A DNA stretch of 64,000 bases from NCBI RefSeq assembly GCF_001583495.1, contig NZ_LQAQ01000090.1, forward strand, positions 186,001-250,000. Direction: 5' to 3'. Of the stretch, positions 7,145 to 12,282 are shown piece after piece. The translations under genes were made by a program, and so were the position numbers. Every line of letters begins with the position of its first letter. The stretch's first letter is position 1. The stretch is from Flammeovirga sp. SJP92 (GTDB taxonomy: Bacteria > Bacteroidota > Bacteroidia > Cytophagales > Flammeovirgaceae). The notes beneath the pieces are model-generated. The model searched no databases. It worked only from the letters and a program-made list of their open reading frames with translations, and was not told the origin of the DNA.

Positions 7145-7723
7145 TTGGATAACACTCTATTGAAAGTGCATTCAGAAGTCGATACACTATACCAAAAAAT
7201 GCGAGGTGCGAATGGAGAAGAACTATTTGCATTTAAAGGCATAATGAATGACGATATTCTTGGAGAGATTTTAAGTAGAGTGGAAGATACGTTGTCTGAG
7301 CATGAATCATTGATGAAGCTTCAACGCCGAATTAATGTCATTGCTGTAGAAATACTTCAAAATATATTTCATCATTTTGAAGGAGTTGATTCCACTACTG
7401 TTAGTGATCCTTCCCACAATATTGTCATGTTTTTGCTGTCTAAAGGAAAAGATGCCTACTACATCATAGCAGGGAATTATGTTCCTATAGAAACCGCAGA
7501 ATTTTTAAAAGAGAAAATAGATTCTATTAACAATCTATCTGTAGAAGAACTTAAGAAGCGTTACCGCAAAGTTCTCAGTAATGGTGATTTTTCAGAGCAG
7601 GGAGGAGCAGGCTTAGGGATAATTGATATTGCTCGAAAGTCAGGTCAAAAGCTTGACTATGATTTTGTCACTAAAGATAATAGAAACTCATTTTTTACAA
7701 TCAAAGTAAGCGTACCCGTATAA
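7145..7723 (+). CDS. siaB: SiaB-family histidine-kinase-like protein kinase
   Basis: 192 residues. A GHKL-type ATPase fold is suggested by the N-box EILQNIFHHFEG (Glu69, Asn73) and the glycine box GGAGLGIIDIARKSG (residues 153-167). This matches SiaB, which phosphorylates the partner protein SiaC in the SiaABC switch of Pseudomonas. The start is a TTG at 7145: an in-frame TAA lies one codon before it, and the next in-frame Met is residue 20, inside the conserved region, so TTG is the best choice. siaC follows 12 bases later, a clear operon. Confidence 0.85.
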   Translation: MDNTLLKVHSEVDTLYQKMRGANGEELFAFKGIMNDDILGEILSRVEDTLSEHESLMKLQRRINVIAVEILQNIFHHFEGVDSTTVSDPSHNIVMFLLSKGKDAYYIIAGNYVPIETAEFLKEKIDSINNLSVEELKKRYRKVLSNGDFSEQGGAGLGIIDIARKSGQKLDYDFVTKDNRNSFFTIKVSVPV

Positions 7724-7735
7724 TCGCACTAGAAG

Positions 7736-8116
7736 ATGAAAGATTTTCTTAAAAAAGATACTCCAAAGACACCTCTCATACAGATGGAATATGAGAGTGG
7801 TTATTTTTTAATATCAGGTAGATCGATTCCTGAAAATTCAATAGAGTTTTACAGACCATTATTTGAATGGTTGGATGAATATAATACTAAGCCACAAACG
7901 AAAACTCAATTCGATGTGAGGTTAGAATATTTTAATACAAGTTCTTCAAAATGTCTTGTAGAAGTTTTTAGAAAGTTAGAATTTTTAAAAGCTAGTGGGC
8001 ATGACGTTGAAGTAAATTGGTATTACGAAGAAGATGATGAAGATATGCAGGAATCTGGAGAAGATTTCAAAGAAGTGATCAAGTTGCCGATTCACATGCA
8101 TATTTTAGAAGAATAA
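7736..8116 (+). CDS. siaC: SiaC-family regulatory phosphoprotein (DUF1987)
   Basis: 126 residues, the usual size. The core LEYFNTSSSKCLVEVFRKLE carries Thr68, which aligns in both motif and residue number with the phosphorylated threonine of Pseudomonas SiaC. The WYYEEDDEDMQESGEDF acidic segment is also family-typical. In the known system unphosphorylated SiaC binds and activates the diguanylate cyclase SiaD; SiaB phosphorylates it and the PP2C protein SiaA reverses this. No cyclase is encoded nearby, so the output partner here is unknown. A terminator follows immediately. Confidence 0.9.
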   Translation: MKDFLKKDTPKTPLIQMEYESGYFLISGRSIPENSIEFYRPLFEWLDEYNTKPQTKTQFDVRLEYFNTSSSKCLVEVFRKLEFLKASGHDVEVNWYYEEDDEDMQESGEDFKEVIKLPIHMHILEE

Positions 8117-8165: not shown

Positions 8166-9512
8166 TTAGATCTTAGGATCGTTTTCAAACGCTGTATTAA
8201 TCAAATCATCCACAAAGAACTTAGCCTTCTTAGGAAGTGAAATTACCATCTTTCCTGATTGATATAAATGCAATTGATCAAAAACCTTAGCTATCTTGTC
8301 CAATTCCTCTCTCTTGAGACTGATTTTCATTAACTGATTCTCAAAAGAAGGCTTATTTTTATAAATAGCATCCAAAAGCTCATATTGGGGATCAGTGAAA
8401 ATTAAATCACCTATTGAAGATCCAATATTATCCATTTCGTTTCTTTCAATCTGATCCATCAAATAGAAAACTTCAATGTCAATCTTACCGTCTTCATTTT
8501 CCTCTTCGTCTTCAATTAAAAATTGATTTTCATAAACCAATAAGATATGAGTGATCAATTCTTGTTGACTTTCAGAGAAGTACTTCTTGATGCTTTCCCA
8601 TTCAATTTCTTCCGTAAAAGCTTCTTTTAAACTATTGAGTTGCTTTTTGTTATATTTTGAATCACCAATCTTCACAAAAGTTTTGTTATTGAAGACCGCA
8701 TCCAATAATTTCAATTCAGCCTTCGAGAAATTATTATCTGCAAAAATTGAATTGTCCTCATTTGTACTATTGCTTGATGATTCAATCTCAAATAACTCTT
8801 GAATACTGAAAGTGTGGAATTCATTCGGCTCTTCATCATTAAGATGAGAACATTTTTCAAGAATATTTAATATAAATTGTTCCTGATCAATGTCTAATGG
8901 AGTGTTTTCCGGATACTCTAAAGTGGTGATGATTTCACGGACATAATCCAATTGAGCAAGATTGAATGTTAAGTTTCCAACTTTTACTTCTTTCTTGTTT
9001 TTGGTTTCATCCTCATGAATGATAGACAAAAATTCAAATTCATGATCTGTAAGTGTTGTGGCAGAAGTTAAATCACTATCACCAAACTCTCTTTCAATTT
9101 CATTCATCATGAAAAGAACACTGATGTTTTTGAGAGAGTCAATCAACTCCCAGCGGTTTTCATCCTCGTATTCCCAATCGGTCTCTATTTCATCAAGTTT
9201 TTCGCTTAAAGCTTTAAAAAATGAAAGCTGTTCTGCTTTTTGGATTACTTCTTGAATAGCATTGTAAACAGGAGTTCTTTTGCCTTTGCTGAAGTCAATA
9301 TTGTCAAGTATTTCTTTTACTTGGTTGATTTCGGCTGAAGTAAAAGGAGGAAATAGAGAAGAATTACTATCTTCGCTCTGATCATAAATAGATTTAAAGA
9401 ATTCAAACTCATTGAGAGAAAAAATAAAATCGCTTGCTTCAGGAGTAATATTATGAGCTTCCAGATCTAGGCGGTCACTTTTTTCTAATTGGTAGATTTC
9501 TTCAATGTGCAT
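8166..9512 (-). CDS. Acidic protein of unknown function built from four degenerate repeats
   Basis: 448 residues, strongly acidic, no signal peptide or membrane segment, so probably cytoplasmic. No family is recognised. By eye it contains four diverged units, each with a core of the form [acidic]-x-E/Y-x-F/L-L-x-x-I/V, then a short basic patch, then a helix ending in a VREI/LKEA/IAKV-like stretch: cores near residues 31 (NEFEFFKSIY), 156 (DHEFEFLSII), 263 (KAELKLLDAV) and 372 (PQYELLDAIY). Helices preceding the second and fourth cores (MNEIERE, MDQIERN) also match. The pattern suggests a helical-repeat scaffold. It ends just after the siaBC terminator on the opposite strand; any link to siaBC is only positional. 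Confidence 0.75.
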   Translation of the reverse strand: MHIEEIYQLEKSDRLDLEAHNITPEASDFIFSLNEFEFFKSIYDQSEDSNSSLFPPFTSAEINQVKEILDNIDFSKGKRTPVYNAIQEVIQKAEQLSFFKALSEKLDEIETDWEYEDENRWELIDSLKNISVLFMMNEIEREFGDSDLTSATTLTDHEFEFLSIIHEDETKNKKEVKVGNLTFNLAQLDYVREIITTLEYPENTPLDIDQEQFILNILEKCSHLNDEEPNEFHTFSIQELFEIESSSNSTNEDNSIFADNNFSKAELKLLDAVFNNKTFVKIGDSKYNKKQLNSLKEAFTEEIEWESIKKYFSESQQELITHILLVYENQFLIEDEEENEDGKIDIEVFYLMDQIERNEMDNIGSSIGDLIFTDPQYELLDAIYKNKPSFENQLMKISLKREELDKIAKVFDQLHLYQSGKMVISLPKKAKFFVDDLINTAFENDPKI

Positions 9513-9659
9513 TCTGATGAATTTTACGTTTCGTTCTTAAATACCTCCAATAATAAGGAGATAGAATTAAAATACATAGAGAAATTACAAAACAGATGTA
9601 AAAAAACGAATGTAATTTGTACTCTTACTTTCTATTTAGATGTAGTTTTTGCAGATTTG

Positions 9660-9667
9660 CAAAGTTA
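9660..9667 (-). promoter_or_regulatory. Candidate -7 box for the four-repeat protein gene
   Basis: Reverse strand reads TAACTTTG, matching TAnnTTTG, about 148 bases upstream of the start at 9512. No -33 box recognised. Confidence 0.3.
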
Positions 9668-9770
9668 ATGAATAAACTGACCTTAAAACTGTGCATAACT
9701 TCATTAAAAGTGAGGTGATTGTGATCTTTTTTATTGGACCAATAATAGAAATATACTGAAATAATAATAT

Positions 9771-10796
9771 ATGGGATTGTTTGATTTCTTTTCTAGCGAC
9801 TTGGCAATTGACTTAGGTACAGCCAACACACTCGTTATTCAGAAAGACAAGGTAGTAGTAGATGAACCTTCAATCATTGCTTTAGACCGTCAGAATGGAA
9901 AAGTCATTGCTGTTGGGACCAAGGCCATGCAAATGCACGAGAAAACGCATGAAAACATCAGAACTATTCGTCCTCTTCGCGATGGTGTAATTGCTGACTT
10001 CCACGCAGCAGAGCAGATGATACGTGGTATGATCCGTATGATCAACCAAGGTAAAAAATTCTTTACGCCTTCTCACAGAATGGTGATTTGTATTCCATCT
10101 GGTATCACAGAGGTGGAAAAACGTGCCGTACGTGACTCTGCAGAGCACGCTGGAGCAAAAGAAGTATATATGATTCCTGAACCTATTGCGGCTGCAATTG
10201 GTATTGGTATTGATATCGAACAACCTGTAGGTAGCATGATCGTTGATATCGGAGGTGGTACAACGGAAATTGCTGTCATTGCACTTTCTGGTATTGTTGG
10301 TGATCAGTCTATTAGAACTGCTGGTGATGTATTCACAAGAGATATCTTGGATTACATGCGTCGTCAACACAACTTACTGATTGGCGAGCGTTCTGCTGAA
10401 AAAATTAAAGTAGAAGTAGGTTCAGCTTTAACAGAGTTGGATGAAGAAATCGAGCCATTTGAGGTAAGAGGTAGGGACCTTATGACTGGTATTCCTAAGG
10501 TGATTACGGTTACTTACTCTGAAGTAGCTTATGCCATTGATAAATCAATTTCTAAAATTGAGGAAGCTGTATTAAGAGCTTTAGAAACTGCACCACCAGA
10601 ATTATCAGCAGATATTTATGATAGAGGTATTCATTTAACTGGTGGAGGTGCATTATTGAGAGGATTAGACAAACGTCTTTCTATCAAAACAAAACTTCCA
10701 GTGCACGTGGCGGATGATCCATTGAGAGCTGTAGTACGTGGAACTGGACAAGCATTGAAAAACTTAGATAGTTACAAAGCAGTATTGATGACTTAA
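9771..10796 (+). CDS. mreB: Rod shape-determining protein MreB
   Basis: 341 residues, actin-fold ATPase that polymerises on the inner face of the cytoplasmic membrane and guides the elongasome. Phosphate-1 motif DLGTANT (residues 14-20), phosphate-2 VDIGGGTTEIAV (158-169) and the adenosine motif LTGGGALLRGLD near residue 290 are intact. The N-terminal GLFDFFSSD is a typical short amphipathic membrane anchor. A strong terminator lies 67 bases after the stop codon and no mreC, mreD, mrdA or rodA follows, so it is transcribed alone here, unlike the usual mreBCD arrangement. Confidence 0.97.
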   Translation: MGLFDFFSSDLAIDLGTANTLVIQKDKVVVDEPSIIALDRQNGKVIAVGTKAMQMHEKTHENIRTIRPLRDGVIADFHAAEQMIRGMIRMINQGKKFFTPSHRMVICIPSGITEVEKRAVRDSAEHAGAKEVYMIPEPIAAAIGIGIDIEQPVGSMIVDIGGGTTEIAVIALSGIVGDQSIRTAGDVFTRDILDYMRRQHNLLIGERSAEKIKVEVGSALTELDEEIEPFEVRGRDLMTGIPKVITVTYSEVAYAIDKSISKIEEAVLRALETAPPELSADIYDRGIHLTGGGALLRGLDKRLSIKTKLPVHVADDPLRAVVRGTGQALKNLDSYKAVLMT

Positions 10797-11002: not shown

Positions 11003-11815
11003 TTATTGTGTGACTTTTACTGTCCGATAAGTCCTTCGTTTCTTACCTCTTGTTTTATGCATCTGAATAGGAGTTCTCATATAACATGACATGTGTGGTC
11101 TTATAAAGTTATATGTTTTTATACATTCTTTTAAATAGGCTTCAAATACGATTTCATAACTGACATATTTACTTAAGTTAAAGTCATGCTTTATTGTTCT
11201 GTTAATGCGTTCTGCAATAGCATTTTTATACGGATCATAAGTTTCTGTCATACTTGTTATGATTTTCGATTTCCTAAGTAACTTCTGATAGGCTTTACTA
11301 CAATATTGGACTCCTCTATCAGAATGATGTATCAATGTTTCTCCTTTATATTCACGTTGTTTTATCGCCATTTTCAAGGCTCTAATTACTCCCTCTTTAT
11401 CTAAAGACCTAGATAAGTCGTAACCCATTATCTTCTTTGAATAGGCATCCGTTACTAATGCCAAATACCAAGGGTTGTCTCTTGTTCCTACATAAGTAAT
11501 ATCTGCTACTACAACCTGTTCAGGTCTATTTATCTCAAGACCATCTACCAAATCTGGATAAGTTTTAAATCTATGGTCTGAATCAGTTGTGACATGATAA
11601 GCTCTCTTAGCTTGTATTTCTAAGTGGTTAGCTTTCATAATTTGAAGTAGCTTATCACGACCTACACCTAAAGACTTTAATTGAGGATAGAGTAGTGAAT
11701 ACAGCATCCTATGCCCACTATTAGGAAGTTTTATCCTCTCGTTTTGTATTAGTGCTACTACTTGCTCAGAAATTTCCAGATCTTTCTTCTTACGATGGAT
11801 GGAGCGGTAGTACAC
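11003..11815 (-). CDS. IS3-family transposase orfB (DDE integrase core)
   Basis: 270 residues from a GTG at 11815; in vivo probably made as a fusion with orfA. An HTH_21 segment (YYRSIHRKK) precedes an rve integrase core with catalytic triad Asp105 (VVADITYVG), Asp166 (HHSDRGVQY) and Glu202 (NAIAERINRTIKHDF); the 35-residue spacing between the second Asp and the Glu is the IS3 signature. The same frame continues upstream of 11815 without a stop to the slippery site at 11902-11908, encoding the YSSQLLGKDRQVYYR segment that belongs to the orfB product. The reading frame is intact, so the element may be active. Confidence 0.93.
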   Translation of the reverse strand: MYYRSIHRKKKDLEISEQVVALIQNERIKLPNSGHRMLYSLLYPQLKSLGVGRDKLLQIMKANHLEIQAKRAYHVTTDSDHRFKTYPDLVDGLEINRPEQVVVADITYVGTRDNPWYLALVTDAYSKKIMGYDLSRSLDKEGVIRALKMAIKQREYKGETLIHHSDRGVQYCSKAYQKLLRKSKIITSMTETYDPYKNAIAERINRTIKHDFNLSKYVSYEIVFEAYLKECIKTYNFIRPHMSCYMRTPIQMHKTRGKKRRTYRTVKVTQ

Positions 11816-11886
11816 TTGACGATCTTTCCCAAGTAACTGACTTGAATATTCAATACTTATAGAATATCCATTTCTGAAATCATCAA

Positions 11887-12282
11887 CTACTTGGGTGAAG
11901 AGTTTTTTCTTATGTCAATTTTATACTCTTTTTCGGCCAGGTCAATCATCATATCGAAAATGATGGCCTTATGATCTGCTTTCTCAGCTTCTGCTTCTAA
12001 TCTATTGATTTTCTTTTTGGCGGTTTCCAATTCCAGTTTGAGCTCTAACAGTTCTTGTTCAGGTGTTTTCTTCTTCATGGTACTGACTTTATGGTTCCAG
12101 TCAAAGTTACCATATTTTTGTAACCAAACCTTTACTGTTCTATCTCCCTGTATTCCATATTTACGTGTAGCTCCTTTTAAACTTAATTGACCACTTTCAA
12201 CTTCTGAGACAATTTGAAGTTTTAAGGACATTGAATAATCCTTCTGAGTTCTTTTAACATATTGACTTTTATTGTCTTCCAT
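11887..12282 (-). CDS. IS3-family transposase orfA (helix-turn-helix protein)
   Basis: 131 residues. An N-terminal HTH (about 15-60, with IVSEVESGQLSLKGATRKYG) that recognises the element ends, followed by a leucine-zipper coiled coil (LLELKLELETAKKKINRLEAE, about 74-95) used for multimerisation. It ends in RKNSSPK at a TAG. The heptamer that allows -1 frameshifting into orfB overlaps codons for Arg-Lys-Asn seven codons before the stop. Confidence 0.9.
   Translation of the reverse strand: MEDNKSQYVKRTQKDYSMSLKLQIVSEVESGQLSLKGATRKYGIQGDRTVKVWLQKYGNFDWNHKVSTMKKKTPEQELLELKLELETAKKKINRLEAEAEKADHKAIIFDMMIDLAEKEYKIDIRKNSSPK
11902..11908 (-). promoter_or_regulatory. Programmed -1 frameshift heptamer A AAA AAC
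   Basis: On the reverse strand, in the orfA frame, the codons AGA AAA AAC give the canonical heptamer A-AAA-AAC. Slipping back one base moves ribosomes into the orfB frame, which is open across the junction. OrfB is in the -1 frame relative to orfA, as required. Confidence 0.85.

Follow-up and report, generated by a model that had tools for sequence, protein, structure and literature searches.

Flammeovirga sp. SJP92 and its relatives encode a soluble, highly acidic protein built from four diverged copies of a single small domain, a domain absent from the family libraries we searched. We place the probability of this four-repeat anatomy at about 95%. The gene lies at 8166..9512 on the minus strand of the window, the whole stretch of 64,000 nucleotides analysed here; its ORF has exactly these bounds, starts at ATG and encodes 448 amino acids, with homologues in 10 further genomes. 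The protein contains 97 D/E residues against 43 K/R residues, with a pI of 4.35 and a net charge of -54. Its highest 19-residue Kyte-Doolittle mean is 0.62, and across all 11 homologues these maxima reach only 0.62-1.07, from which we conclude that the protein is soluble; by the same measure, no transmembrane helix was found in any of the 11. The sequence-only reading of this DNA, which had called the protein very acidic and cytoplasmic, was thus right on both counts. For six of the seven species pairs tried, dN/dS was 0.015-0.055 by a rough NG86 estimate in which dS is saturated (>1), and the seventh pair returned no value. We regard the ORF as a real gene under purifying selection.

The four repeats follow one another on the minus strand. 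R1 (residues 1-107, 9192..9512) has predicted helices at residues 3-19, 33-43, 59-71 and 93-112 and no predicted hairpin. It is joined to R2 by a tryptophan-rich and acidic linker (residues 108-128, 9129..9191) with the pattern E-x-x-W-E-[YF]-x-D-x-x-x-W-E. R2 (residues 129-228, 8829..9128) has helices at 125-143, 156-166, 185-197 and 208-225 and a hairpin at 175-178/181-184, and R3 (residues 233-332, 8517..8816) has helices at 237-246, 264-274, 289-300 and 314-328 and a hairpin at 280-282/285-287. A second acidic linker (residues 333-344, 8481..8516) leads to R4 (residues 345-446, 8175..8480), with helices at 346-363, 374-384, 401-412 and 428-443 and a hairpin at 389-392/397-400. Each assignment rests on profile alignment, structural models and a tree of the repeats. 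The four core motifs that had been placed at about residues 31, 156, 263 and 372 are all present, although their positions required adjustment to 34, 156, 264 and 375, a spacing of 122, 108 and 111 residues.

To compare the repeats, the 11-row homologue alignment was split into four registers (1-128, 129-232, 233-344 and 345-448), which were aligned profile to profile with hhalign. All six pairs aligned, with probabilities of 94.6-98.1% and scores of 47.5-75.7. Column-shuffled partners (99 per pair, 594 in total) gave mean scores of 11.4-12.1 and a maximum of 21.6, and reversed partners (one per pair, six in total) scored 10.7-20.9. The two halves of the protein, 1-232 and 233-448, also aligned with each other across 199 columns with a score of 108. 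Identity between repeats is low (15-23%), as would be expected if the periodicity were a chance product of amphipathic acidic helices, but even the weakest real pair has more than double the highest score reached by any shuffled or reversed control, and the repeats fall into two supported types; we consider chance periodicity to be almost certainly wrong. The self-alignment thus bears out the claim of four degenerate ~110-residue repeats.

These repeats are not four equivalent copies, which amends the earlier reading. In a tree of 44 repeats (four registers from 11 proteins), the 11 copies of each register grouped together, and R1 and R3 (type A) were split from R2 and R4 (type B) with support of 96/85, in a tree in which long branches that meet are flagged. 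Judged from these sequences, the order is A-B-A-B, which is best explained by duplication of an A-B pair. In the simplest history, a single domain would have given rise to A-B and then to A-B-A-B before the three genera that carry the protein parted.

An AlphaFold2 model of the full-length protein, made from the 11-row alignment, had a mean pLDDT of 76.7 and a pTM of 0.31. In this model R2, R3 and R4 each comprise helix, helix, beta-hairpin, helix and helix, and R1 comprises four helices, so the same helix order recurs four times even though the input alignment carried no cross-repeat information. Modelled singly with the 44 repeats as its alignment, R2 reached a pLDDT of 85.5 and a pTM of 0.76. 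Residues with pLDDT <50 (111-117, 227-233, 249-258 and 331-342) lie at or near repeat borders, except for 249-258 within R3. The flexible acidic linkers and low pTM suggest, within the reach of a shallow 11-sequence alignment, compact domains strung together like beads and not packed into a rigid solenoid. The repeats of the proposed helical-repeat scaffold stand, but in this provisional model they appear as separate small domains, of which three contain a hairpin, and not as a continuous helical solenoid.

Conservation is uneven along the protein. Among the proteins of SJP92 and of G010 and G012, one genome each of two other genera of the same family, the first helix of R2 is the best-conserved stretch (59% of residues identical), followed by the first helix of R4 (42%), the R1-R2 linker (38%) and the first helix of R1 (35%); the first helix of R3 (15%) and the repeat cores (14-23%) are far more variable. 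Linker residues E110, W113, E114, D117, W121 and E122 are invariant. The first helices of R1, R2 and R4, together with the Trp/acidic linker, are the likeliest contact surfaces.

That no family could be recognised in the protein was upheld: Pfam, NCBIfam, PHROGs and PADLOC yielded no credible match. The only Pfam match to the whole protein was HTH_40 at E 0.21, below the cut-off, and the best to any of the 44 single repeats had an E of 0.017; neither search produced a TPR-, HEAT- or ARM-type or other solenoid repeat profile, nor a winged-helix or MerR family above the cut-off. Against PDB sequences, the repeat profile reached at best E 0.15 and the whole-protein profile had no match at E 10. 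Structural searches of PDB and viral folds with the full model and with one repeat found nothing at E 0.001 or better with Foldseek; the best VIA Z scores were 4.3 for the full model, to a Fic-domain protein (56 residues, rmsd 2.8), and 2.5 for the single repeat, to an unrelated chain (64 residues, rmsd 5.8). A PHROG match to the G010 homologue (E 2.2e-4) spans only 16 residues, and Cas6-type matches at E 0.21 and 0.055 were too weak to retain. Among the open-licence PMC articles that our literature searches listed, none had a title or abstract opening on this protein or on a second MreB in Flammeovirga; three articles name Flammeovirga together with MreB. We therefore class the repeat domain, by sequence, as a family absent from the libraries searched, and the protein in general terms as a duplicated-domain adaptor.

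To assess the distribution of the protein, we searched progressively wider sets of genomes. A protein search found homologues in 11 of 38 related genomes, SJP92 included, and a search limited to the family returned the same 11 among 18 genomes: all nine Flammeovirga, G010 and G012. The ten other homologues are 33-94% identical to the SJP92 protein. At E 0.01, the whole-protein profile matched 14 of 390 order genomes, comprising the 11 carriers and three genomes outside the family with weak matches. Two of these were inspected and judged unrelated, L014 being a TolC-like outer-membrane factor and L015 an M14-like peptidase; the third (L016, E 0.005) matches the same profile region with the same frame length as L015 and is presumed unrelated too. 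Beyond the family, the 372 remaining genomes of the order yielded no convincing homologue. A profile of the single repeat gave strong matches only in the same 11 carriers among the 390 order genomes (25 at E 0.1). In the class sample (395 genomes; 34 at E 0.1) and the phylum sample (395 genomes; 4 at E 0.01), SJP92 alone gave strong matches; the three samples overlap. Recovery of the 44 repeats by the A2 repeat model, which derives from those same repeats, is circular and not used as proof.

Other candidates were rejected. A second match in G004 (L017) is a short frame without a family, L040 is a MerR-like regulator, L029 an integrase-like protein, L135 an efflux-type protein, and L133 and L134 a RecO-like protein (E 8.3e-4 and 2.3e-3 per genome, 395 genomes searched); all were judged unrelated. 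Presumed unrelated are the remaining weak matches in the class (E 0.0097 or weaker) and order (E 0.0115 or weaker) samples, a second G982 match in the phylum sample (E 0.0056) and the weak matches of the A2 model (E 0.1 or weaker). The family names of these out-of-family loci (TolC-, M14-, MerR-, integrase- and RecO-like, efflux-type) are presumptive, assigned from sequence motifs.

We then analysed the genomic context of the gene. Its divergent neighbour is a second, solitary mreB (9771..10796, plus strand; MreB_Mbl, E 1e-127) that has neither mreC nor mreD beside it and is 82.7% identical to this genome's other copy, the one located with mreC. The two genes share a 258-bp intergenic region (9513..9770), some blocks of which are conserved in the nine Flammeovirga; a scan of this region with a Bacteroidota-type promoter consensus did no better than on 60 shuffles of one sequence. 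The divergent pair occurs in 10 of the 11 carriers, that is, in every Flammeovirga and in G010. The repeat proteins of G010 and Flammeovirga are 35% identical and their MreBs 88%; apart from this pair, nothing in the 17-kb G010 stretch clusters with genes of the three Flammeovirga stretches compared. In G012, the repeat gene is far from either mreB and adjoins a LepA-like gene, named from its sequence, and a gene for a regulator-propeller protein. G001 and G008 have other genes on the right-hand side of mreB, so rearrangement has occurred there. Just right of the solitary mreB in the window is an IS3-like transposase pair (11003-12282) with an integrase core (E 9.5e-22) and a helix-turn-helix match (E 9.8e-5) under the curated cut-off.

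The presence of the repeat gene coincides with that of an extra MreB. With the neighbouring MreB as query, the 18 genomes of the family gave two close copies in every one of the 11 carriers and one in each of the seven others. The mreB flanks were read in five carriers (G000, G001 and G008 among the Flammeovirga, plus G010 and G012) and the seven non-carriers. In each of the five, one copy lies with MreC-like and MreD-like genes and the other copy lies without them: the mreB beside the repeat gene lacks such neighbours in G000, G001, G008 and G010, and the other copy has them in these four and in G012. The single mreB of all seven non-carriers lies with an MreC-like gene, and in five of the seven with the MreD-like cluster as well. 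In one genome a Pfam match (E 1.3e-36) confirmed MreC; the MreD-like protein there had no Pfam match and was named by position. The SJP92 genome also holds a third MreB-like gene (L074 1441-2460; G000 contig C62 27335-28288), 31% identical to the solitary MreB and detected at E 1e-30 in this genome only among the 18; the protein adjoining it is presumably SPFH-like.

In an MreB tree, the solitary copies lie on one side of a branch (82/78) and the single copies of non-carriers on another (86/86). No single group unites the operon copies (two changes in the best tree, one in 30% of bootstraps), and any duplication history read from this tree is provisional. Branches are longest for the G010 and G012 operon copies (L082 and L084; 0.27 and 0.28) against 0.08-0.09 for their solitary counterparts, and in these two genera the operon gene appears to have changed faster. 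A tree of MreC, the MreD-like protein and one more protein, built from 12 genomes (five carriers and seven non-carriers, with the G013 row 37% filled and G014 on a long branch), places the carriers on one side of a branch (95/98). The residues shared by all solitary MreBs and seen only there number just two (V48 and T189), and solitary and operon copies show fixed differences at no more than four positions, so little marks a dedicated docking site on the solitary protein. A wider search covered 157 genomes of the order; of the 145 that lie outside the family, 12 had two MreB copies at E 1e-120, 124 had one and nine had none. The 12 are G040, G045, G055, G068, G114, G127, G139, G143, G148, G150, G155 and G161.

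What might the protein do? The possible reading that we tentatively put forward, drawn from neighbourhood and co-occurrence, is that the protein could act in the cytoplasm as a multivalent adaptor of the solitary MreB. Docking would fall to the first helices of the repeats and the R1-R2 linker, and with its four domains strung on flexible acidic linkers one molecule could touch several subunits of an MreB filament or, alternatively, tie the filament to other partners; this could put the second MreB under control separate from that of the mreC-linked copy. The perfect match, among the 18 family genomes, between repeat gene and second MreB and the divergent pair in all carriers but one favour this adaptor, and the unlinked genes of G012 count against it. 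At least as probable, if still short of even odds, since few independent events lie behind the genomic evidence, is a scaffold or binding protein, multivalent and specific to this lineage, that has nothing to do with MreB; its gene would have arisen in the same ancestor, taken its position by chance and kept an inherited divergent order. As the carriers lie on one side of one branch, linkage and co-occurrence each count about once, and the co-occurrence is probably one event rather than 11; the gain of the repeat gene and of the second mreB may have been a single ancestral event. The separation in G012 also fits such a scaffold, as do the 12 two-MreB genomes elsewhere in the order, in which no homologue was detected and which indicate that a second MreB needs no repeat protein. 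Against it, G010 has kept the pair although none of the other genes read around it clusters with those of Flammeovirga, and G000 also has a different gene from G001/G008 on the right-hand side of mreB. The weight we give to the kept G010 pair is a judgement. A tie to the extra MreB is plausible on this indirect evidence, and the link to mreB suggested by the sequence-only reading survives in amended form, as one to the second mreB and not to the copy with mreC. The fullest version of the adaptor idea, a new class of bacterial-actin accessory protein that is A-B-A-B and acidic, arose with a duplicated stand-alone MreB and binds along its filament through several subunits to form a second, independently controlled actin system, is improbable as a whole.

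Two further roles have less in their favour. A nucleic-acid-linked protein, with winged-helix-like repeats or acting as an acidic DNA mimic, would account for the net charge and for a helix-helix-hairpin-helix-helix order that resembles that of MerR-type winged helices; the best out-of-family order match of the repeat profile is also a MerR-like protein (E 0.004, G145, named from sequence), with a weaker match in another genome of the same genus (G164, E 0.0135). However, no HTH family passed its cut-off, HTH_40 included, no fold matched at E 0.001 or better and the acidic charge is unsuited to DNA binding. DNA mimics are usual in viruses, phages and plasmids, and our searches of viral contigs, phages and plasmids found no homologue. 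We regard this role as quite unlikely. Less likely again is a part in SiaB/SiaC switch signalling, for example as a scaffold for the kinase and its phosphoprotein, even though siaB (DUF6272, E 3.5e-35) and siaC (E 1.5e-42) adjoin the gene at 7145-8116, siaC is only ~50 bp away and a SiaC-like gene occupies that flank in all nine Flammeovirga. The siaC and repeat genes are convergent and so do not form an operon, another gene intervenes in three of the nine (L005-L007), and no member of the siaB or siaC clusters occurs in the 16-17 kb around the repeat gene in G010 or G012. The suggested link to siaBC thus reflects a neighbourhood seen in Flammeovirga only, and has lost support. The intervening ORFs of L005 and L007 are alike and secreted-looking, and that of L006 is different.

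Collectively, these results describe a domain for which our searches gave no credible sequence or fold match, in a protein apparently assembled through two successive duplications. It marks an unusual situation, in which Flammeovirga and its two related genera keep two closely similar MreBs; where flanks were read, one copy lies with mreC and the other stands alone. Should the protein serve the solitary MreB, the pair would offer a simple two-gene system for how cells run two near-identical actins; if it has no MreB role, it still represents a domain family missing from the libraries searched.

Several known systems invite comparison. RodZ has a helix-turn-helix domain and a membrane helix, whereas the repeat protein has no membrane helix and no Pfam or NCBIfam match to a RodZ-type helix-turn-helix domain, carries four repeats and is restricted to one lineage. 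Like TPR- and HEAT-type scaffolds, it is soluble and made of tandem, mostly helical repeats, but its units are ~100 amino acids long, three of the four contain a hairpin, none matches a Pfam repeat, and the model from the 11-sequence alignment predicts flexible linkers in place of a packed superhelix. In MerR-like winged helices a hairpin precedes the third helix, and the repeats share this order; they differ in belonging to an acidic protein without a family or fold match, with only weak hits, in two of 390 genomes. If the MreB-partner reading is right, the closest functional likeness would be to RodZ, described in the part of PMC12372405 consulted as binding MreB and tuning its filaments. 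The same part of that source describes several MreB paralogues with specialised roles in one cell, MreB, Mbl and MreBH in Bacillus and MreB1-5 in Spiroplasma, and no such repeat protein. Flammeovirga and its two related genera resemble these systems in having more than one MreB in a cell and differ in that their two copies, in the three genomes compared, remain 80.6-82.7% identical to each other.
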